Assembly (NCBI RefSeq): GCF_000565215.1 | Contig: NZ_CP006934.1 | Span: forward strand, 868,001 to 932,000 | DNA from: Spiroplasma sabaudiense Ar-1343 | GTDB lineage: Bacteria; Bacillota_I; Bacilli_A; Mycoplasmatales; Mycoplasmataceae | DNA: 64,000 bases | Direction of reading: 5' to 3' | Shown: piece by piece, positions 34,940 to 50,553 of the stretch | How positions within the stretch are numbered: the stretch's first letter is position 1 | Layout of the letters: every line of letters starts with the position of its first letter | Program-made: the position numbers and the translations under genes | The notes under the pieces: model-generated | Database searches by the model: none | Seen by the model: only the letters and a program-made list of their open reading frames with translations | Told to the model about the DNA's origin: nothing

Positions 34940-37133
34940 TTAAGCACTGGTGCTAGCAACTTTTGTTGCAGCTTTTTGGGCTTTTTTTTCCATAATTTTA
35001 TCTCATTTTGGTTTTAAAATTGGTACTTTAGCATCGCGTTGTTCACGAACAGCCTTAGCTTTTGTTAAATATTTTTCTTCTTTAATTTTAGCTTTTTGCA
35101 TAATTGCTTCTTGACGAGTTTTTAATTTCTCTTTATCAACCATGCGTTTTTCTCAAAATTCGTTAACAGTTTCAGCATCGTTAATTGCATTTTCGGCCTT
35201 CATTTCAAGAGCCGAAACTTTGCGACCAGTAATAACTTCAAAACGGTATTCTGGATCATCATAATAACGCATTTCTAAGTTATATTTATCAATATCTGAA
35301 GCTTTTAGTTTTTTGAAGTAATTTGCATTATCAATTAAGACGAATGGGAAGTACATCACAAGACTAATTCCTAGACAAATAGTTGCTGGAATTAGCGCCA
35401 TTGGGTCAAGAGAAGTAATTACCGCTCCAATAAACCATGGTGCTGTTCAAGGGGTTGCAACATATGAATATTTTACAACTCCTAAAACGTCTGGTGAGAA
35501 GACCCATCCAATAATTAAATTGAAAATTGGGGCAAAAATAAATGGTACAACATAAATTGGATTTAAAATTAATGGGTAACCAAAAATTGTTGGTTCATTA
35601 ATTTGGAAGACTCCCGCAGGGGTTGCATATTTTGCAACCTCACGAAGTTCTTGACGTTTTGAAACAGCAAAGGTCATAATTAATAATCCTAAAGTTGCTC
35701 CACTTCCTCCAACATACATATAAGAATCAAAGAAAGGTTTGGTAAATACTCCCATTTGTCCTGAGGCAGCTGCTAATTCATAACCCATTGAAGTTACAAG
35801 AGTAGCATTAATACCTAAAATCATTCATCAAATTGGTTCAAAGATTCCAGCCATTAGGTTTGAACCATGAACTCCAAAGAATCAGAAGAATCCAGTAAAG
35901 AATACAAAAGCAATTCCTAAACCAATTCCCCCACTTCCTGTTGCAAAACCAATAAATCAACTTGTAAAGATTTTATAAATAAAGGCTCCAGCTCCAAATT
36001 GAGTGGCTCCAAGTGTTATTACTTGGAATGAGGCTGATAAAATATAGCCCCCGCTTTCTGAGTCAAGGTAGAACGACATTTTAGCAGCTTGATCTAATCA
36101 AGCAAAGTTCGATTTTCCTTGCAAAGCTGCAATCGCAGTAGTTCATACTGCCTGATCTGCAACACCTAAGGCATTATAAGCGTCAATAAAGGCTTTTTGA
36201 TTTTCAATCGAGTTTTCTAATGCTAAAATTTGTAGCATTGGTGTTAATAAATCTTTATATTCAACAAAGGCAGCTAGCGCTCCCTTTTCAGCGAATAATA
36301 AATCAATGTTATCAGCATCAATTGAGCCAAACATTTTTCCAAATTCAGCAGAGGTTAATGTAAAGTAGCTACCACTATTTACAAATCAACCCCCCCCCAA
36401 CAATTGCCATTGATAAAAAGATAACGTTAACAGCTCCAACAGCTCCCAATGTAATGACAACAGGTAGGAAAACCGCAAATGATTTTCCAACAGCTGGTGG
36501 AACACCATCTGGTAATTTAATATTTAGAGCGCGAACCCCTGAAAGATATATAAAAAATTCAGTTGCTAACAATCCAAAAATAATTGCTTGAATTAATCCA
36601 ACCGCTCCCATGAAGAAAGTTATTTCCCCCATACAAGCTAGTAGGAATGCTGACAATGATACAAAACCTGCAATAATTGGTGCTTTAAATTGACGACTTA
36701 AAGCAATAAAGTATCCAAATAGAAAGGCAAAATAAACAGCCATCATTCCAACTGTAACTGTATTAATGTGGCCGAATGCCAATCCCCCAATTTTTGAGGC
36801 TTGCCCTCAACCGTTTCCTGTGTCTGCTAATAGGGCAGTTACCCCATCTCATGAAACATCAGGATTAGCAGCTTTACAAATTAGTCCTAGTATTGAAACA
36901 TATCCACTACCAGCACCACCAAAAATAATTGCGTTAATTAAAATCCCGATTGAACCAGCAATAATTAACGGAATCATCGTTCCAAAAGAGTCACGAATCG
37001 CTGCTAAATGGCGTTGATTACCAACTTTTGCCATTCCTGGAACCAGAGACTCATTAATTCATTGTTTAAAAGTCCGTTTTTCTTTTGCTTTTTCACGCGA
37101 CTTTTTGACATCAAATTTTTCAACTTCTGCCAT
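34940..37133 (-). pseudogene. PTS lactose/cellobiose-family EIIC, frameshifted at a C9 tract
   Basis: Two halves of one EIIC gene lie in different frames. The first half (37133 to about 36390) starts with GAGGAG-preceded ATG and runs through several helices to IVGGG; a run of nine C on the plus strand (36390-36398) then shifts it into LICK and a stop at 36375. The other frame picks up at once as WFVNSGSYFTLTSAEFG and continues to 34940 through the conserved GVHGSNLM, FQINEPTIFGYPLILNP (the EIIC NEP motif). Eight C would restore a ~730-residue protein with a long basic C-terminal tail. No other lesion is seen, so this is either phase-off, a recent mutation or a sequencing error. Confidence 0.88.
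36390..36398. repeat. mononucleotide C9 tract in EIIC gene
   Basis: Nine C on the plus strand (nine G in the coding strand) within GGG codons of a membrane loop. It is the exact point of the frameshift. A related G-rich run of eight in ptsG (30270-30277) is in frame. Confidence 0.9.
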
Positions 37134-38542: not shown

Positions 38543-39214
38543 CTAGTACTTTCACGACATAAGCGACTTTAAATTTCATAAAACCTTACGCTCGGGAGTT
38601 TCAACATTTTGAACACAAATATCTAACCTTGGATTTATAATAATTTTTTGAAAGACCTTGTCATTTAATGATTCATTTATTAGGATTTCGTATAAATATT
38701 GCTGTGCTTGAATTCTTTCTTCAAAATTTGTTCTGCCAGTCCGAATATCAACCAGCAGTATTCCTTTATTTGTTTTAAATAAAAATGGCACTTGTCCTAT
38801 TAAAAAGATTTCATTTGAAATTCACAAAACTTCATTGCAATTAATTTTTGTAACATTATACTTGTAAATTAATTGATTCATTTCCGTTATAATTCTTTTT
38901 GCCAATTGTTGATGAAATTTATCCTCACAACTTTCAATAATAAGAGGAATGAGCTTGGTTTTTTTTAAAATTGAATCAGAAATTATCTTACGAACACAAA
39001 GATCTCGTTCAATTGAATTTTCGATAATTTCGGTCTTGATTTTTAAATCTAAATAAGGATAGGCTTCATTAATAATGTCGCATACTTTTGGAAGTGTAAT
39101 ATTGTCATTTGCATCTATATAATCTTTTAACATTTGGAAGGCATTACTTTTTTTATCTTGTATTTTAAATTCTTTGCTTTGAACATCAAAAAATACGTTT
39201 TTTAATTGATTCAT
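38543..39214 (-). CDS. unknown protein with PD-(D/E)XK-like segment
   Basis: 223 residues; AAGGAG 6 nt before the ATG. The N-terminal 120 residues are helical and charged. Residues ~135-175 read IFLIGQVPFLF ... ILLVDIRTGR ... QAQQYLYEIL, which is the order of the RecB/Cas4-type nuclease core (GxxD, hhhD-x-KTG, QLxxY) but with Pro for Asp and Arg for Lys. It may be an inactive nuclease fold or chance likeness. Lies after the terminator of the giant-protein operon, so a separate unit. Internal TGA codons at 38822, 38576 and 38552. Confidence 0.7.
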
Positions 39215-39260: not shown

Positions 39261-39289
39261 AAATCTGCGTCATTAATAAACGCAGATTT
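39261..39289 (-). terminator. terminator of the giant repeat-protein operon
   Basis: AAATCTGCGT / ACGCAGATTT with 9-base loop, 29 bases after the stop of the 2305-aa gene; A/T-rich tail follows. Confidence 0.8.
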
Positions 39290-39317: not shown

Positions 39318-42300
39318 CTAATAATCAACGTATTTACCACATTTCTCACATTGGCTGTTTGCTTTTTGAGTATGTGAACACTTGTGATGGTGATTAAAAT
39401 TAGCAATTTGAAAGTTATTAGCCTTTTGATTATAACGTCCTTTTGAATTGTAAATATGACCTTGACTTGCATGAGAGCATCGGTTATGTTGACATTGACA
39501 TTCATTTACTTCTCTTGAGAACACTGTGCGTTCTTTTTTAACCATTGTGTTTACACTTGGGAAGCTGTTATTAATATCATTTAAATCATTGTAGATGCGG
39601 TCAATATCTTCTTGAAGAAGCGCTATTTTTCTAGCATCAATTGTTTTGTCTTTACCTGTTAAGATTTTCAACATATTTTCGATTGAATTCATTCTTGTTT
39701 CAATTTTGTCATAGAACTCAGCGGGTTTTGGTTCGAATCTTCTTGAAACTGAGCCATTATATAATTCATTATTATCATTAATAAATTTAGAGTCAGCTAC
39801 ATATTTTAAGTCCAAATTATAATCATCTTCATAATCATTTTGTAAGTTTTTTAATGAAGAAACTTCTTGATTTTCGTTTTTATACTTTTCATTAGCATTT
39901 TGCAAACTATTTAATTGCTCTTTTAAATTTTCAATTTGTTTATTTGCATTTTCCATTGAATCAGCTGGTCTTGATATAGTTGGTTCAGTAAATTGATTTT
40001 TGTCTTCAAAATTTTCTTTTTCTTTTAAAGAAACTTTCTTGATAGCTATTGTAGTTTTAATAATTTTACCAAAATCGTTTACTACTTTATTTTCGTCTTT
40101 ATCAAATAGTTTTTTATTTAAATATTTTTCTAAGTAAAGCTCTCCATCAATATCATAAATATTTGTGTAGTCTATTAAATCATCATAACTATTTAGAATA
40201 ACTTGATTGCCATCTGAATAAAATACTGGTTGATTATTTTCGCCATATAACTTGGTTCCCAATTTTGAAATTGGCATTTCAATAAAATCGTAATTTTCAC
40301 TAATTGAAGCTTGATCTTTAAAAGTTGCTTCATTTATATTTTCTTTAATCAATTCGATATTCCCAAATTCATCAACAACTTGTCTTCCAAATTGATCAAA
40401 CAATTTTTTATCAAAGTTATCTTGGTTCAATTTTGAAATTTTGTTTCCAAATTCATCAAATCTGTTTCCAATTTTTGGTTGATAATCAAAAGTTATTTGC
40501 ATTTGTTTACCTGTTTCATCGAAAACAGGATTTTGATTTTCATCAAATAGTTTAGTTCCCACAGCAACAACTGGTTTAAATGAAACAATAATATCTTTAT
40601 TATTAGCTAAATTTGAGTCAGAGTTATTATTTGGGTTTTCAAAAGTAATGTTTTGATCATCCATGTTTTTCATCTGAGGTTTTTCATCTGGAACAAATAA
40701 TAATGGTTTTTCACTTTGTTCAATTGGTGTTGCAACTTTGAAAGAATCATTTGCAACTAAAAGTTCTGGTGATACTTTTTCAGTTAAATCGCGGTCTAAA
40801 ATTGGAGTACTAATTTTTTCTTCAATTTCTTTTGGCAATTGGTCAATTGAATCATTTATGTGATCATCTTCAGGTAATTTTTCAATGAAATTTTCAAAAT
40901 CATCTTCTATAATTTTGATTACCGGGTTTTTTAATGTAATCTGCTTTCCTTTTTCATCAAATGCAGCCACACCATCTTTTGTAACAAGAGACTTGTCCTT
41001 TTCAAAAGTAACGATTTCTCCCGATTCATTATAAACTTCCCCTGTAAATGATACTAAATCTTTTGAAGTTATTATTCTTTCGCCTTTTTCGTTGAAAGCG
41101 GGGGTTCCTAGTTTCGTAAACAATGGTTCACCAACACCAACAACTTGGGTTTTTACGTATTTAACTTCTTCTCCATTTGGTTTTGTTGCAACCTTAATTT
41201 CATCTCTGAAAACTTCAATCGTTTTTTCTTCGATTACAGGTTTTCCTGACGCCTTAAAAATTAAAGTTCCTTTACTATCAAATAGTGATTTATCAACATT
41301 TGATTCTTCGGGTTTAAATAGCAGCTCGCTATTTTCATCAAAAACAGGTTCATTTATTTTTAGCGAGCTTGTTGATAGTAGCGGCTCTCCGTTTGATTTG
41401 AAAACCGGTCTTCCATCTTTTGTAAATATTTTTTCGCCAATTTTAGCAACAGGATTTTTAACAATAACTTTAACAAGATCTAAATCTTCTGTTAATGAAT
41501 TAATTTCTTGGTTTTTTTGTTCTTTAGTTTCTTCTGGGTAAACTTCTTTTATTGATTGATTTTCTAATTTTTCTTCAAAATCAGTTTGACTAATTAAGAG
41601 TTTCTTTTGAGTAACTGGAGTTCCAGTAAAATCAATAACTAGTTTTCCCATTTTTGAATATAAAGCTTTGCCATTATTAAAGTTCTGAGGATCTTTTAAC
41701 AAGTTATCCCCTTTACTATTAAAAATATTTCCACGAATTGGCTCTATTGTCCCGCTCATTAATAAGGGGTTGTTTTTTTCATCAAAAACTTGTTCTCCAT
41801 TTTTAGTAAATAAAGGTTGGCCTTTTTCTAGAATTGGCTCTAATATGTATTCAATTTTATTTCCGTTTTCGTCTAATTCTGAATTAATTAAATCAGAATT
41901 TATAACCAATTTTTCTAATTTTTTTATTATTTTTCCAGTTGAATCATAAATTAGTTCACCATCTTTAGAAAAGAGTGATAAGTTAGTATCTTTGTTATTA
42001 GCATCTAAAAGAACTTCACCATTTTCATTGTAAATTGTTTTTGTGATGATTAAAGTTTCCTTTGTAACTTTTAGTTTGAAACCTTTAGAATCAAAAGCTT
42101 GTTTACCCTGTCTTGTAAAAATTTCAGTACCCATCGGTACAATTGGTGATTCAACAAAAATCTCTTTAGGGGACGCAATGTTTGTCAACTCGACTTCGGA
42201 TTCTTCATCAACTTCACTTTCCAAATCGTTTTCAAATTCCCCGTCTTTTTCTTCAGACAATTCAACAGATTCAGGAATAGTTTCATGGAAATCAAACTCA

Positions 42301-45300
42301 TCGCTATTTGTTTTTTCAGAATCTGTATTTTTAATTTCGTCCTTTTCAATTTCGGGATTTAATTCCGTTTTTATTTCATTTACAAAGTTAATTATTGGTT
42401 GTTTAAAAACTTTTTGTTGACCTTTGTCATCAAAAGCAACTGATCCATCCTCGGTTACAAGAGTTTTGTCATCTCCTAAAATTAATACTCTACCTTTTTT
42501 ATCATAAATAGTTTCTGGAACTACGTCTAAAGTTTTTGAAGATAGTAATTGTTTTCTGTTTGAATCAAAAACTGGTTTACCACTTTTAGTAAATAATAAC
42601 TGCCCATCTTCGATAACAGGAGTTGTTATAAACTGAACTTCTTCACCATTTGGTTTTGTAGCGGTTTTTATTTGATCAACTCTCAATTTTAAAGTTTCCT
42701 CTTTAGTAACTGGTTTTCCATTAGCTTTAAATAATTGAATTCCGTTTTTATCAAATAATGATTTATCTGAATCAATGTCATCCATATCAAATAGAATTCT
42801 ATTTTTACTGTCAAAGACAACATCACTTATTTTTAAATTACTTGTTGTGACTAGTTGATTCTTGTTTTCATCAAAGACTGGTTTACCATCTTTTGTGAAA
42901 ATTGGGGTTCCTATTTTAGCAATTGGGGTTTTAATTACAACTTCTTTATATTCTGGATTAGTAAGGACATCCAAATTAGGGGTTTCTTTTAATTTTTGGA
43001 TTTTGACTTCATCATAATTTAGTTTTTGTCCATTTAAATCTGTAACTTGAACTTTTGACTTTGTAAAAGTTACTCTTGCTAAATTTAAATGATTTTTTGA
43101 TAAATAAGGTTGTTTTCCTTTTTTGTCAACAACTTCACTTCAATCTATTTCTTCCAAATTATCTGAAACTAAAAGTGGCTGTTTTTTTCCTTTGAATAAC
43201 TGAATTCCTTCAACGTTAAGCAACTGGCTGTTCTCATCAATTATTTTTCTAAACTCTAAAACAGGATCACCATTTTTATCAAAAACTTTTTCTTGAGCAA
43301 AATTATATAATGACTTATCTAAGACTTTTTTTGACTCATCAAAAACCAGCCTAAAGCTAGAATCAAATACATCTCCTGATGTAATAGATTTTAGTTTTTG
43401 AGAAACTTGTAGGACTTGTCCGTCAACATCAAAAACTAATTTACCCTTCTTGGTAAATAAAATGGTTCCCATCGGCGCCATTACTGGCTCTTCTGTTCTT
43501 GTAAATTCCAAATTTTCTTCAAAAGAGTTTTCTTCCAAGCTTACTTCGCTTAGATCAATATTTTCTGGTTCTGGTTCTTTAAATTCTTTTTCAACAAAGT
43601 TTTCGATTTCCACAGGTACAAATTTTGGATCTCCTACCTCTAAAATATCGGTTTTAATTATGGCTCCAAAGTAGTCATAAACTTGTTCTCCAGACTTGTT
43701 AAACAAAGCAAGTCCCAAGTTTTTTTCTTGACGATTTTCAAAAAATGGTTTGCCCTTTTTATCAAAAACAAGACTTTCATCTAATTTTTCTAGATCACTT
43801 GAAACTACTAGTTGGTCACGATTTTCATCAAATACTGGTTTTCCGTATTCATTAAACAATAAGGTACCATCTTCAAAAGCGTTGTTTTTTTCAAATTTAA
43901 TTAATCTTTTATCGTTTACTGCAACTTCAACTATTTTAGTTAGTGGTTTTCCTGAGCTATCAATTACTAAGTTATTATTGATATCAAATAATTGCACAGC
44001 TTTATTTTTTTTATGAATTCTTTTGCCTTTTTTATCAAAAATATTTATATAATCAAGTTTTAATAAATCCCCATTAGTTTGTAACGGTTGCTTATTAATA
44101 TCAAAAACAGGTTCACCTTTTTTGTCAAACAGCAATATTCCGGCATCAAACATTGGTCGCTCTAGTGAAACTAATTTTTTGTTAGCTTCTTGAATTTCCA
44201 TTTCGGTTGAACTTCCTGGCAGTTTCTTATCGACTGCTTGGTAATATTGGACTGCTGGGGTTCCTTTCAGGTCTTTTATGTTTTTATCTGATTTTAAGAT
44301 GTCTCAAACTTTGAATCCTTCATAATTAAATAATGCAAATGAGTGCGGGAATTTTTCTTCACGACTATTTAGAATGTGACCATTGATATCAAAAATTTCT
44401 GTTTCCAAAATTTCTGTTATTTGACCATCATTTTCTAATTGTTTACCATTGATATCAAATACTGGATTTCCATGTCAATCATATAACTTGATTGATTTTT
44501 TTTCCATTAAAGTTTCTGTTGGTTCAATAATTTGATTTTCAACTTCTGTTAATTTCTCTAATTGAACTGGTAGTTTATTTCCTTGCTCGTCATAAACTTG
44601 ATCTCCAAGTCAGTTAAACAAAGAATAGCCGCAAGGTAAATCTTTATCATCTGCAAATAGCAACTCAAAGTTTTGGTCATAAACATTATTTATGTCTAAT
44701 TTATCTAATGCATTTTTTGAAGTTAGTTGTAATTTTTGGCTGTCAAAAACCGGGTTCCCATTTCAATCAAACAAGGCTTGTTCTTTAATCACTTCATCGA
44801 CGGCATCCGCTGATTTAGCTTCTTTCATTTTACTTTTAACATTTTTTCAGTTGAAGTTAAATTCATCATTTGTGATTGTGTCTTCAATGGTGTCAATTGG
44901 AAACGCTAAATCATTTGGCGCTGTAGTTTTAAGTTCTGTTGACGGAATTGTAACTTCCAAATCATCACGGTCTTCTATTGTATATTCTTCAAAACCAACA
45001 AAATCATCTAGTACATTTTGAGTGTCTTGAATATTTCTGATAACCTTCTTATGGATAATTTCGTAAGCTTCCATTTTGTTAGCAAAATTTCCATCAGACA
45101 AGTCAAATTCTTCTGAATCGGTTTTATCAATAAAAGGAACTCCTGCTTCATTTGAGAATTTAATTTGAGCTGAATCTTCAGAATCTTCTTGATAATATTT
45201 TTTCCCATATACATTTGAGAAATAATCAATTTTTGCCACCAAATAACGATCGGCTAGTCGTAATTCTTCACAAACATCATTGACATCTTTTACAAGATAG

Positions 45301-46235
45301 TTGTATTCATTTTGAATTTTGCGAATTTTTTGCTCAGAAACTAATCCGTCAGTTATTAAGTCAATGTTACGGTTATGCAAAATTTTTAAATTATTAATCT
45401 CTTCTAATCAATAAGAGTACATGCGTTGGTATTTGTGGTTATTCACTCGTGAAGGATCATAAATTGGTCCAACAATGCTGTCAAAGTCAATTTCATTACT
45501 TTTGTCTACAACTGTTGTGTCAATTTGAGCTTTATTATTAATATAATCTTCATTTAAATAATCAACCTTGGCAACAATAAAATTACTTGCTAATTGTAAA
45601 AATTCAGCAATTTCATTTACCTTAATTACCTTTTGATTATAAAGGTTTGATTCGCGACGAATCTTTAAAACTTCTCATTCTCCCGAACGAATCATTGTTA
45701 TATTGTGGTTATTAATTTTTTTTAAGTCATTAATTAATTCTAATCATTCGATAAATACTTTTTGATATTTACGACACAAAATTTTTGAAGGTTCTGTGAT
45801 GGGACCCTTTATATCTTGAAACTTAATTCGACGGTTTTTGTAATTTGCTGTGGTATCAAAAAGTTCCCCAGCTGAGGTAAATGAGCTATTCAAATAGTCA
45901 ACATAAGCTACTAAAAAAGAATTTGACAACTTCAGTAATTTAGCCATTTTATTTATAGAAAAAGCCATATCATTGTGACTGTTTTGTAATTTAGTTAATT
46001 GACTTGGTTTCAAATTTTGAATTTTTATTTTTGAAATATTTTTGTTATTCAAAATGTGTAAAAATTCAACTTTTTCCATTCAGTTTAAATAAAGCTTGTG
46101 ATAGCGACTATTATTAATCTTTCATGGTTCTTCGACTGGTCACTTAATTTCTCTTAAACTTACTTTTGGAGTATCTAAGCTATCATTTTCTTTTAATTTA
46201 ACTTTTGTGTATGATTTAACAAACGAACTTTTCAT
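39318..46235 (-). CDS. giant 2305-residue repeat protein (scaffold-like, unknown)
   Basis: One open frame of 6918 bases with TGA as Trp; AAGGGG 9 nt before the ATG. No signal peptide or membrane helix, so cytoplasmic. Residues ~36-350: three helical repeats of about 113 residues, each with a P-x6-(Y)xKxYxxWLE start and ending in F(L)VAKVDYLN. Residues ~485-2050: about 14 super-repeats of ~112 residues, each made of a short unit LFTKxGKPVFDxxGxxL and a longer unit VFDxxG ... KSLFDKxG ... GKPV. Acidic linkers (Glu/Asp/Ser) break the array. Then a coiled coil (~2090-2130) and a Cys/His-rich tail from ~2248 (ECQCQHNRCSH, HHHKCSH, CEKCGKY) likely to bind metal. Third gene of an operon with a membrane protein. 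I know no characterised homologue; role as structural scaffold is a hypothesis. Confidence 0.9.
39320..39520 (-). other. Cys/His-rich C-terminal tail of the giant protein
   Basis: In the last ~65 residues there are seven Cys and about nine His, grouped as CQC, CSH, HHHKCSH and CEKC. Such density outside a repeat array usually means zinc binding. A metal-linked dimer or docking module is possible. Confidence 0.6.
40050..44790 (-). repeat. array of about 14 LFDxxGxPVFD super-repeats (coding)
   Basis: Protein-level tandem array of roughly 112-residue super-repeats. DNA identity between units is moderate, but units near 42560-42960 and 41080-41460 are alike enough to recombine. First two units have DWNGNPVFD and DWHGNPVFD with Trp from TGA codons. 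Confidence 0.85.
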
Positions 46236-46264
46236 TTTTAAAACCCCTTTTCTCTATAATGCTA

Positions 46265-46894
46265 TTACCATTTACCTTGATCTTTTTTATAAGATTTTTT
46301 GTATTTTGAATTTGGCTTTTCTAATTTTTCATCCCAGCTTCCAAAACGAATTTTTCAGCTTCGACGGCCCTCTTTGTTTACTTCTTTTTCAAATTTTTTC
46401 TCTTCACGATAAATTAAAATTAGATTACGCTCTTCTGAATAGTTATTTAATGCATCAACGTCATGTAAAATTATTTCTAACAAGATTAATGCAATAAATA
46501 AGCAGCCCGCTAGAGGTAAAACAACTAGTTGTCCAAAAATTAATGCAAAAATTATTATAAAAATCATATAAATTTTAACAAACGGTAAGGAAATTTTTTG
46601 ACGTCGCTTAATTCTAACAAATTCAACAATCGACAGGATTACTAGAATTCCGGCAAATGTTATATATGCAACTGGCAAAGCTACATAAAAGTATTTATAA
46701 GTGGTTGGAACCATCGAATCAATACCCAAAGCTTTTACACCCAATCATTGTTTTGTTAAAATATCACTTATTTTTGCTAATAAAGTTCCATTTGAAAGTG
46801 ATTCAGCATACATTATTATAATAGCTCCAGCTATTAGAGATAGTGCCCCAATGAAAACGATTATTCAAGCAGCAATTGCAAGTCTTTTAAACAT
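46265..46894 (-). CDS. four-helix membrane protein of the giant-protein operon
   Basis: 209 residues; GAAAGGAAA upstream of the ATG. Helices at about 6-28, 64-85, 96-113 and 114-132; then a long basic cytoplasmic tail (EEKKFEKEVNKEGRRS ... KKSYKKDQGKW). Lies 29 bases before the giant gene and 27 after the 499-aa gene. It could anchor the other two proteins to the membrane; not recognised otherwise. Confidence 0.78.
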
Positions 46895-46921
46895 AAAGAT
46901 ATTTCCTTTCTTCTAAAAAAT

Positions 46922-48421
46922 TTATTTTTTTCTTTCAAATGGGTTAAAAACTCCTGGTCGAGCATTTGAATTACTATTTGCATCCATGAGTATTTCTGGA
47001 TCAAAGATAGTTTCATCAACACCATCACTTCTTCTTAAAAACGAAGAGCGAACAACTTTAGGTTCTTCAACAACCTCTTCTTCAATAACAGGCTCTGGAG
47101 TGTAATGACCAAAAAGCGGCCCTAAATCTAATTCTGTATTTTCTCTAATGGTAGGGTCATCATAAATAACTCTTTCGCTTTCGAATTTCTTTTGTTCCCT
47201 TTCGGCTTTCTTTTCAGCCTTAGCTTTTTTAGTTATAAATTCATTGATTCTTTGAGTCGGTATTTCGATTGTCTGAGTTGAACCAAAATTCGGAATTTTA
47301 ACATTTAACAATTCTGTAATCGGCTTGTTTTTTTCTTTAATTGGTGTGATTGGTTGTGGGTCCATCTTAGGTTGGGGCTGTTGTACTTGTTGGGGTTTTA
47401 TATAACTATTTCTTACTGGTTCAAAATTATGTTTTTGTTGTGCATAGTTATTTTGGGGAAGCTCAACTGTTTCTTGCACAAGTTGATTTGCAATTTCGCG
47501 GGCTAACTCATCTTCTTTTACTCTTGGCTTTGGAGGACAAACAGCCAGTTTTGGGGCTTCATTAAAGAAGTTTTCCTCTTCAACATCATCTAAAATATAA
47601 CCAGTTTCATTAAAATTATCAAAATGTTCAAAAAACATTGTCTCATTTTGATCTAATTCAGAAGGATATAACAAGTTTCTGCAATCAACTAATCCATCAA
47701 AAAGTGTGTATCAATTTTTAATGTAGTCACCTATATAGTTTTGATAATGACTTGTGATTAAACTTGGGTTAATTTCAATTAAAACTTTAATGTTTGTCAC
47801 GCGTTCAAATACCGTTGTAACAAATGAAACCATTTTATTTACATCATCAAATTGTAAACCTCTAAAATCTTTAACTAAAATTACTAATGGTCGGCGATAA
47901 TTATATGCCTGAAAAACATCATTAAATTCAAGTCGAATCGCTTCTAATGGATCATCAAAATCTAGACTCTCTTCAAAATCAAAACAATAATCACTATCAC
48001 CTTTGCCATAATTTAGGGCTGAAAGCAATATAGAAATTCTTTCTCATAAAACTTTTTTGTCCTCAATTTTAACTAGAGGTAAATGGTTTATGATTTGTTT
48101 TAGTAGGAAAGAAAATGGTGCACTATATAGAAACACTTTTTTGGCTTCAATCGAAATGACATCCATTGGACCAGCACCTGATTTAATAGCAAAAATTTGA
48201 TTTCCAACTTCGTCTTGGTTTCCTAATAACCCAAAAAATTGCTTTCTTGAATGAGTGTTTACTAAAGCATCTATCACATCATCGATTGCCATTGTTTTTA
48301 AATTAATTTTTCTTCGGTTTTGAGAATTATTACTATTATAGTTTTCTCTTCTTAAGTTGTTGTCTGAGCTTTTTCTCTCTGAATTACTTAATGAAGTTGA
48401 CTGGTTTGTTTTATTATTCAT
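46922..48421 (-). CDS. 499-residue protein with globular head and disordered P/Q-rich linker
   Basis: ATG at 48421 with GGAGG 9 nt upstream. Residues 1-45 are Ser/Asn-rich; ~46-270 form a globular domain with alternating strands and helices, including GNQIFAIKSGAG and RRPLVILVKDFRG. The second resembles a Walker B strand and the first sits where a P-loop would be but lacks the Lys-Ser/Thr, so a degenerate NTPase fold is possible. From ~310 the chain is Pro/Gln/Glu-rich (VQQPQPKMDPQPITP) with a basic helical patch (KKAKAEKKAEREQKK) and a short C-terminal motif PGVFNPFERKK. First gene of the operon that encodes the giant repeat protein. Function unknown. Confidence 0.8.
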
Positions 48422-48519: not shown

Positions 48520-49035
48520 CTATCTTTTTTTAGTTAAATCACTAAAATTTATAATTCTAGAGGGTTGATTATTAAGTTTTTCGGTATAAAATACCGCAGT
48601 TGCATCTAAAATAATATTTGCAAATAGGTTCTTATCATCTAAATAGTTAGTTTGGCTAAAGTTGGCACTTGTTGAAAAAATTGGCCCGGTCTCATTTATA
48701 ATTGCTCTTAAATCAGGTTTTTTCACCATTCGCAAGGCAATTGTTGAGTTTTCTTGGTCAATTCTTTGGCAAATAACAGTTGTTGGCTCTTTGCTTTCAA
48801 ATAATTTTTTTAATTCAGGGGTTAGCTTAACAAAATTGCGGATTTGTAAATAGTCACAAAATAAAACAATTAAAGGTTTTTTTGCGTTGCTCCCTTTAAG
48901 GTTATTTATTTTAGTCTGATTTGAAATACTAAAGAGCGCTGAAATTCCATAAATAGTATCTGTGGGAATTACAACGATTTTGTCATTTTTTATTTGATTT
49001 ATTATTTCTGATATTTGAATTTTGTTTAGCAGCAT
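48520..49035 (-). CDS. tsaC: threonylcarbamoyl-AMP synthase (TsaC/YwlC family)
   Basis: 171 residues, shorter than usual but holding the core: IVVIPTDTIYGISALF (KxR/T-PTDTIYGL), NAKKPLIVLFC, STIALRMVKKPDLRAII, GPIFSTSANFS (STSAN). Makes the TC-AMP intermediate for t6A at position 37 of ANN-decoding tRNAs. Chosen ATG at 49035 has AAGGAACG upstream. Part of the prfA-prmC-tsaC neighbourhood found in many Firmicutes, here with a membrane protein gene between. Confidence 0.92.
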   Translation of the reverse strand: MLLNKIQISEIINQIKNDKIVVIPTDTIYGISALFSISNQTKINNLKGSNAKKPLIVLFCDYLQIRNFVKLTPELKKLFESKEPTTVICQRIDQENSTIALRMVKKPDLRAIINETGPIFSTSANFSQTNYLDDKNLFANIILDATAVFYTEKLNNQPSRIINFSDLTKKR

Positions 49036-49086
49036 TTTATTTCGTTCCTTCACTTTGTATAAATTAGTTAACCTCTTTAAAACAAT

Positions 49087-50553
49087 TTATGTCTTTTTTG
49101 GCCTCAAACTTTTCTTTTCATTTCTAATTAAATAAACTTTGTGGCCTGTTATTGCTGTTGTTGTTATGGCAAATGAAAGAGAAATAATTGTTTCGGCAAT
49201 AAACTCATTACGCTCTAGTCATAAACTTTTGATAGTTGAATTAGTATTTGAAAAGTCAATAAAATTTATTTTAAAAATAGAGTGAGGCCCAAGAGAAATG
49301 GCAAAGAAATTTTGATAAAATATTCCCGCATCACCTTGGCCATTTTCTGAATTCAAGAATTTTTGGCAAAGTTCAAGAAAACTTTGCCTAATGCCAAGAT
49401 CTTGATTCCAGATTTTAACTAAATTATTTAAAGTTATTTTTGAATAAGTTGCTGCAATGATAGTGAAAAACAATTCAGCAATAAATATTGCAAACTGAAT
49501 TAAATAAATATTGTTGCTAGTGTCTTCATTTCTGATGTATACTGAAATGAATATAATCATTGTTGCCATTGTTAATCCAACAGCAATGATTGGTAATTGA
49601 ATTAAAACGAAATAAGATGAAGGTATTTGGTTTGCATGATCTATAAAATTATTAAAGTTTTCATCATCTGTTACGATTTTAGGTACCAAATAATTTCAAT
49701 TAGCAAAATTTGAAATTCGACCCGAGGTAGTTGAAATACTTATTGCATAGATTACTTGTGGCAAAATTAAAATAGTAGAAAAAACAATCATTAAAATTGA
49801 AACGTTTTTTTCTGAGACAACAAATAATCGATTATAGATTTTTTTTAGAAAAGATTCGCCAAATTGACTTTTTTTCAAATTCGTTTCAATTATTTTTTGA
49901 ATATTATTATCATTATATTTTTTTCCAAATAATAAATCCTGTAAAGAAATGAAAGAAATAATGACCACAACCGATTGGGCGAATAGCATTCATCAAACAT
50001 CCTTGTTTGTCAATCAATTAAATATTATTTTATTTGAGTAATTAATCGTAAATTGAGTTTTGATTTCAATCATTGCTCTTCAGGCTTCTAAATTTTCAGT
50101 ATCTTCATAATTATTATAATGATTTGTTAAATTTTGATATTTAAAAAATAATTGAAACGTTGCGTATTCGTTTTGTGCAAAAGTAATTAAAATAATAAAT
50201 AGTATTAGAAAAAATAAAATAACGGAAATATATGCTGCCTTAACGTTAAAATTTATTCGAGAATTTCTTAAAATAAGCCCGAAAAAGATAACCATCATTA
50301 TTGCCAAAGCAAAAAAAGAAAAGGCGGTTCATTGAACAAAATAAATTAATTTAGGGTTGTTTAACTCGCTTGATAGAATTGGTTTTAAGGTATTATATTT
50401 TTCTAAATAAATCAATAAATTAGCATTTGTATGAGTAATAAAAATAAAAATAAAACTTGGAACTGCAATTACAATCATAAAAAAAGTTACTAAAAAAATA
50501 ACTTTAAAGCAGTGAGGGTTTTTTAAATTATTACCTAATGCATTATTTTCCAT
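49087..50553 (-). CDS. unknown polytopic membrane protein
   Basis: 488 residues with about nine hydrophobic segments and TGA Trp codons that otherwise split it. AAGGAG 6 nt before the ATG and overlapping the end of prmC's reading frame region by spacing of 8 bases. Large soluble loops near 65-90, 135-190 and 300-340. No permease or channel signature I recognise. Confidence 0.78.

Follow-up and report, generated by a model that had tools for sequence, protein, structure and literature searches.

A conserved module of a putative pseudo-AAA+ head, a membrane anchor and a long cytoplasmic rod in spiroplasmas: a candidate scaffold of the helical-cell apparatus

What do three adjoining minus-strand genes of Spiroplasma sabaudiense Ar-1343, one of them encoding a protein of 2305 residues, contribute to the cell? 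The stretch of DNA analysed here (the window, 64,000 nucleotides) covers bases 868001-932000 of a single-contig genome of 1,075,953 bases, and its ORFs were translated with code 4. The minus-strand order was prfA, prmC, a 488-aa membrane protein (49087..50553), tsaC/sua5 (48520..49053; Pfam Sua5_yciO_yrdC, E 1.2e-21), a 499-aa protein (the head), a 209-aa membrane protein (MP), the 2305-aa giant, and a 223-aa gene (38543..39214). The 488-aa gene and tsaC served as upstream locus markers. The gap between the head and MP genes measured 27 nt and that between MP and the giant 29 nt, both with ribosome-binding-like sequences. A terminator-like hairpin with an 11-bp stem, followed by U-rich sequence, lay 3' of the giant (39261..39289, minus strand). 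Its folding energy was -13.7 kcal/mol (z -5.5), and it was not listed by a simple terminator scan. The three genes, their gaps and their single terminator were as the original prediction had described them. They also behaved as one unit, being found together in relatives, both in the module neighbourhood as compared across 17 other genomes and in a profile of 60 genomes; scattering or absence of the genes in close relatives, named beforehand as counting against the unit, was not observed.

The giant (39318..46235, minus strand) had homologous giants of 3111 aa (G001) and 3280 aa (G002) in the same genus, with 53% identity across the first ~870 residues. Given these homologues, the pattern of the giant is, judged by sequence comparison, far beyond chance. 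Its N-terminal part contained three helical repeats of ~112 residues (gN): gN-1 at residues ~29-120 (45876..46151), gN-2 at ~141-234 (45534..45815) and gN-3 at ~252-345 (45201..45482), all on the minus strand and supported by alignment and an HMM run on the sister giants. The predicted repeats of ~113 residues were thereby recovered, and an iterated profile found gN three times per giant and once in every relative's protein examined. Residues 484-2061 (40053..44786, minus strand) formed an array of 14 LFD units in seven pairs, each unit being ~80 aa long, in line with the expected "about 14" alternating repeats; the same iterated HMM counted 23 units in each of the two sister giants. Towards the C-terminus, a coiled coil (residues ~2174-2225; 39561..39716, minus strand) matched by HMM the fused proteins of other genera and was common to most of the counterpart proteins of relatives. 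The last residues (2246-2305; 39318..39500, minus strand) made up a Cys/His tail, possibly a metal-binding end, whose six Cys occupied corresponding positions in three giants. CxxC ends were also present in the g8 and g9 relatives. The coiled coil and Cys/His tail were thus where they had been placed, and hydropathy showed neither a TM segment nor a hydrophobic N-terminus in the giant, in agreement with the predicted lack of a signal peptide.

In a search of 60 relatives, the LFD region matched only the two same-genus genomes. One LFD pair was modelled alone, MAFFT having mixed gN and LFD domains in combined alignments, and the model (25-row alignment) was nearly all beta, with a mean pLDDT of 94.8. 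Against the PDB, the best Foldseek match of the pair had E 0.057 and prob 0.09, and VIA gave Z ≤ 2.9; among viral models the best E was 0.17, with no convincing counterpart. From the model, the LFD units are predicted to be well-folded beta modules, forming a long rod between the membrane-proximal helical domain and the C-terminal coiled coil. In other relatives, the middle segment was low-complexity acidic sequence (g8) or, in some g12 proteins (e.g. L064), ~125-aa tandem repeats unrelated to LFD. Because this segment is low-complexity in one clade, made of unrelated tandem repeats in another and of LFD units here, it seems to be a spacer, of which the length or bulk, and not the sequence, matters. 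We also observed that the fused MP-rod protein of G033 (L064:4682-7978) contained about four near-identical ~125-aa tandem repeats.

The MP (46265..46894, minus strand) had three to four TM segments and a charged cytoplasmic tail, NYSEERNLILIYREEKKFEKEVNKEG, as judged by hydropathy and alignment, and the membrane protein with a basic cytoplasmic tail was in this respect correctly foreseen. Its conservation lay mainly in the inner loop and the cytoplasmic tail (YAEERNLI-IYREERKFEKEVNKEG). The outer loop was short and poorly conserved, the conserved residues being on the predicted cytoplasmic side. At the g7, g8 and g12 loci, MP and the counterpart of the giant were a single ORF of about 750-1100 aa, and in G010 (g9) they were separate, as in the window. 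Comparison of these loci shows, at the level of sequence, that MP and the giant correspond to the two halves of one polypeptide of most relatives. Since the gN protein continues from the cytoplasmic tail of MP in the fused forms, the comparison places the giant in the cytoplasm, tethered to the membrane and starting at its inner face, and predicts that it is not an adhesin. The suggestion that the unit looks internal and structural was supported. As a greatly enlarged form, the giant retains the ancestral helical domain in triplicate together with the C-terminal coiled coil. RodZ, found with MreB, is likewise membrane-anchored with a long cytoplasmic part, resembling the MP-rod; the topology and the domains differ, and an interaction between the module and MreB is putative.

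The head (46922..48421, minus strand) was resolved into a globular domain and a disordered tail, as anticipated. The AF2 model, based on an 18-row alignment, was alpha-beta with core pLDDT > 90, and the AAA+-like domain spanned residues ~46-255 (47657..48286, minus strand). The top VIA match was RdrA of RADAR (Z 13.7 with an rmsd of 5.1 over 208 residues; a second chain gave Z 13.4 and 3.7 over 194), followed by ORC5 and Cdc6 with Z 10-12, and the top rows were all AAA+ or related P-loop proteins. The head shares its predicted fold with AAA+ P-loop ATPases (Z 10-13.7) but differs from them in the nucleotide-binding motifs. Walker A, G-x4-GK[ST], was found after strand 1 in none of the 18 rows; six g12 rows contained AxxxxGKT, but within a helical insert distant from strand 1, where it was not conserved. 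A Walker B acidic pair occurred only in G007 (DE) and G010 (DD), the other rows having KDF, NNI, TNT and others. With no row having a P-loop behind strand 1, and with Walker B acids that vary, the head is most likely a non-hydrolysing platform; the model suggests an AAA+ fold without a P-loop, probably serving for binding and not as a motor. The head sequence matched no Pfam family above the cut-off and had no sequence match in the PDB. Its P/Q/E-rich tail (residues 276-499; 10.3% P, 6.2% Q) ended in NPFERKK. The NPFER motif was N-terminal in the heads of most relatives and C-terminal in the genus of the window (NPFERKK or NPFKNKK; window 46922-46950, minus strand), and it is possibly a movable docking motif.

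The distribution of the module was followed in 60 family genomes, 42 with fib and 18 without. Fib was found with a Fib query sequence (matches up to 98% identical), after which the real gene L107 was used as the query; in the output of a route through PF01048, the 512-aa Fib frames were not recognisable. Homologues of the head domain were present in 40 and of MP in 39 of the 60 genomes, in every case among the 42 with fib, and both were missing from the other 18 (g2, g3, g4, g5 and g10), which also had no Fib. Five or more MreB were found in nearly all 42 Fib genomes (one has four, one three), and zero to two weaker PF06723 matches in the other 18. The module was therefore present with fib and mreB and missing without them, with three partial exceptions among the 42 (G007, G012 and G019). 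The Fib-bearing G007 (g6) had the head and the gN protein, and MP was not found in it. No recognisable head or MP was present in the two g11 genomes, whose Fib is divergent and which have several MreB. After tsaC, their loci (L171:6921-7961 and L172:6793-8370) encoded a protein with three to four TM segments and a tail that is either P/Q-rich or coiled, for which a relation to MP is only suggested, by a match of 12.7 bits in one of the two genomes. The L172 protein contained tandem NARSHYQPYQPIPETKAVPFDELI repeats. Taken together, the module, made up of a probably inactive AAA+-type head, its membrane anchor and the long rod inside the cell, is undescribed and occurs in nearly all of the 42 fib-bearing genomes.

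As controls against general gene loss, we used the 488-aa membrane protein, which was kept in 56 of the 60 genomes, including 17 of the 18 without the module, and the 223-aa gene, likewise present in 17 of those 18. All ten module-less loci examined read prfA-prmC-488MP-tsaC-223, with tsaC overlapping or abutting the 223-aa gene, so that exactly the head, MP and giant were missing and the flanking genes persisted. In a tree of prfA, prmC and tsaC (unrooted, shown with midpoint rooting), the module-less genomes made up one clade with a support of 98. We take this clade to be the non-helical Mesoplasma/Entomoplasma/mycoides relatives, from the tree, the genome sizes and the lack of Fib; the original prediction had proposed looking for the three genes in Mesoplasma as well, and from this presumed group they are absent. 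Since the module-less genomes form one nested clade, the absence is one joint loss (n = 1), precise and supportive, but not proof, and the clade has changed other genes too, which limits the argument from co-loss. Of the proposed "new structural system", the structural unit stood and its being peculiar to this genome did not: the module is spiroplasma-wide, usually as two genes, and what sets the genus apart is just the enormous LFD array.

We propose the module as a physical partner of MreB/Fib. The linkage of the head with the MP-rod, next to which it is encoded throughout, the fusion and the distribution are shown by comparison of sequences, and from these we infer a function that we consider about evenly poised between right and wrong: the module would be a cytoplasm-side membrane scaffold of the helical-cell apparatus, anchoring or organising the MreB/Fib ribbon, perhaps at the tip. 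MP would plant the rod in the membrane, and the rod would include a spacer of adjustable length. The coiled coil and the Cys/His end may drive multimerisation or bind tightly to a filament or to a structure of the pole, and the head could bridge via its disordered tail. Acting together, the head, MP and rod would anchor the ribbon at the membrane or the cell tip, or set its distance from them.

The setting of such a scaffold is given by earlier work. The tapered pole is described as "made by unknown proteins" (PMC9710875), and for reconstituted cells it was suggested that firm attachment of the ribbon at the poles may be missing (PMC9663586). Cells reconstituted with Fib and MreB kink and travel poorly, and they have no tapered pole; the authors of these studies count a lack of pole or attachment proteins among the probable reasons (PMC9663586, PMC9710875). 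The module, absent from just those genomes that have neither fib nor the mreB set, provides named candidates for this gap. A bolder and rather unlikely version is that the head, MP and rod are the missing tapered-pole proteins themselves, building or holding the dumbbell or tip as a structure fixing the ribbon and initiating every switch of helicity, with the LFD array as a new beta-rod fold setting length in the genus. In syn3B, a pair of MreBs is enough for helicity and simple swimming (PMC9710875), so the module is not needed for basic motion.

The module has nearly the same phylogenetic distribution as the Fib/MreB ribbon, but it consists of separate gene families and has not been reported in ribbon preparations. 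As a point against the scaffold, the module proteins were not listed among the 16 proteins from 14 bands of a Triton-insoluble preparation of S. eriocheiris (PMC5289999), nor among the five bands of a ribbon preparation (PMC9582952), although the largest listed band, of 85.8 kDa, was smaller than expected of the fused protein (985 aa if G028 is S. eriocheiris). In G028, probably S. eriocheiris, the module lay near 70 kb, beside a 468-aa lipoprotein fitting SPE-0075. The ribbon protein SPE-1201 (85.8 kDa, 769 aa, two TM) was considered as a module homologue and set aside by its gene position, its number being near mreB2-5. Guessed locus tags of S. eriocheiris found nothing on the module in the literature.

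A likeness to the mycoplasma terminal organelle (in Mycoplasma pneumoniae, HMW1/2, P65, P30 and others) had been described as one of plan only, and our results leave it so. Both combine P/Q-rich disorder, long coiled or repeat proteins and membrane anchors in a wall-less host with a polar tip, but no sequence relation was found. Neither an EAGR box nor HMW, P30 or P65 was matched above the cut-off in Pfam or NCBIfam, libraries that may not cover every such family. The tip proteins of M. pneumoniae reportedly have no homologues in S. eriocheiris (PMC5289999). None of the module families had a Pfam or NCBIfam match above the cut-off, and PADLOC and PHROGs gave no meaningful match to the three proteins.

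It is also possible, though we hold it doubtful, that the module is a general cell-pole, nucleoid or division organiser of spiroplasmas, in which the tethered rod and the pseudo-AAA+ head would position division proteins or DNA, without any direct connection to the ribbon. The resemblance of the head fold to ORC/Cdc6 and RdrA would fit, disordered P/Q-rich tails together with coiled coils are in keeping with a pole organiser, and a PD-(D/E)XK-like gene adjoins the module. However, no DNA-binding domain was found in the module proteins, and the loss of the module coincides with that of fib and the mreB set while its neighbours stay. The adjoining 223-aa gene is, moreover, degenerate and a locus marker outside the module. 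Relatives read GTIDxIL...MDIKT, with a best PDDEXK_1 match of E 0.0014, whereas the window protein reads GQVPFLF...VDIRT and does not hold the D...(D/E)xK nuclease motif. Within this PD-(D/E)XK/Cas4-like family, the motifs were intact in g12 relatives and changed from D to P and from K to R in the genus of the window. In the module-less clade the gene stays beside tsaC, whereas g8 has an intact module and no such gene, so that it is not a partner; a place as fourth module member was ruled out by the same distribution.

An improbable alternative to the scaffold is a motility-control or sensory module, with MP sensing and the rod and head relaying to the ribbon. Its distribution would be right, being that of the fib- and mreB-bearing spiroplasmas, which show chemotaxis without two-component genes, by machinery that is unknown (PMC5289999). 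Nevertheless, no sensor domain was found in Pfam or NCBIfam searches, and the short, poorly conserved outer loop of MP, with its conserved residues on the predicted cytoplasmic side, argues against sensing.

It is very improbable that the expanded giant stands in for a Fib ribbon that S. sabaudiense has lost. The species is stated to lack fib, yet it swims (PMC9582952, PMC9663586). We located a fib homologue in its genome (G000:C1:366301-367827) with 65% identity and one in-frame TAA about two thirds along, reflecting either a pseudogene or a sequencing error. The two same-genus species with longer giants, of 23 LFD units each, keep open, uninterrupted fib genes; the expansion of the giant therefore did not follow the loss of fib, and replacement was ruled out as the main explanation. 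The fib of G076 was likewise split, across two frames.

That the giant is an adhesin, secreted or on the surface, with the LFD units as its repeats, is scarcely credible: many large proteins built of repeated beta units are adhesins, and the weak sub-threshold Pfam matches of the LFD units, those to "beta flower" and ArlS_N among them, include surface families, but the giant has neither a TM segment nor a hydrophobic start, its counterpart in relatives follows the cytoplasmic tail of MP in one polypeptide, and the clear match to a secreted adhesin or enzyme family that would have counted against the original prediction did not appear above the cut-off. Elsewhere in the window, a PTS EIIC-like gene (34940-37133, minus strand) was split into two overlapping ORFs, one of 252 and one of 522 aa, whose frames differ as though by a frameshift.
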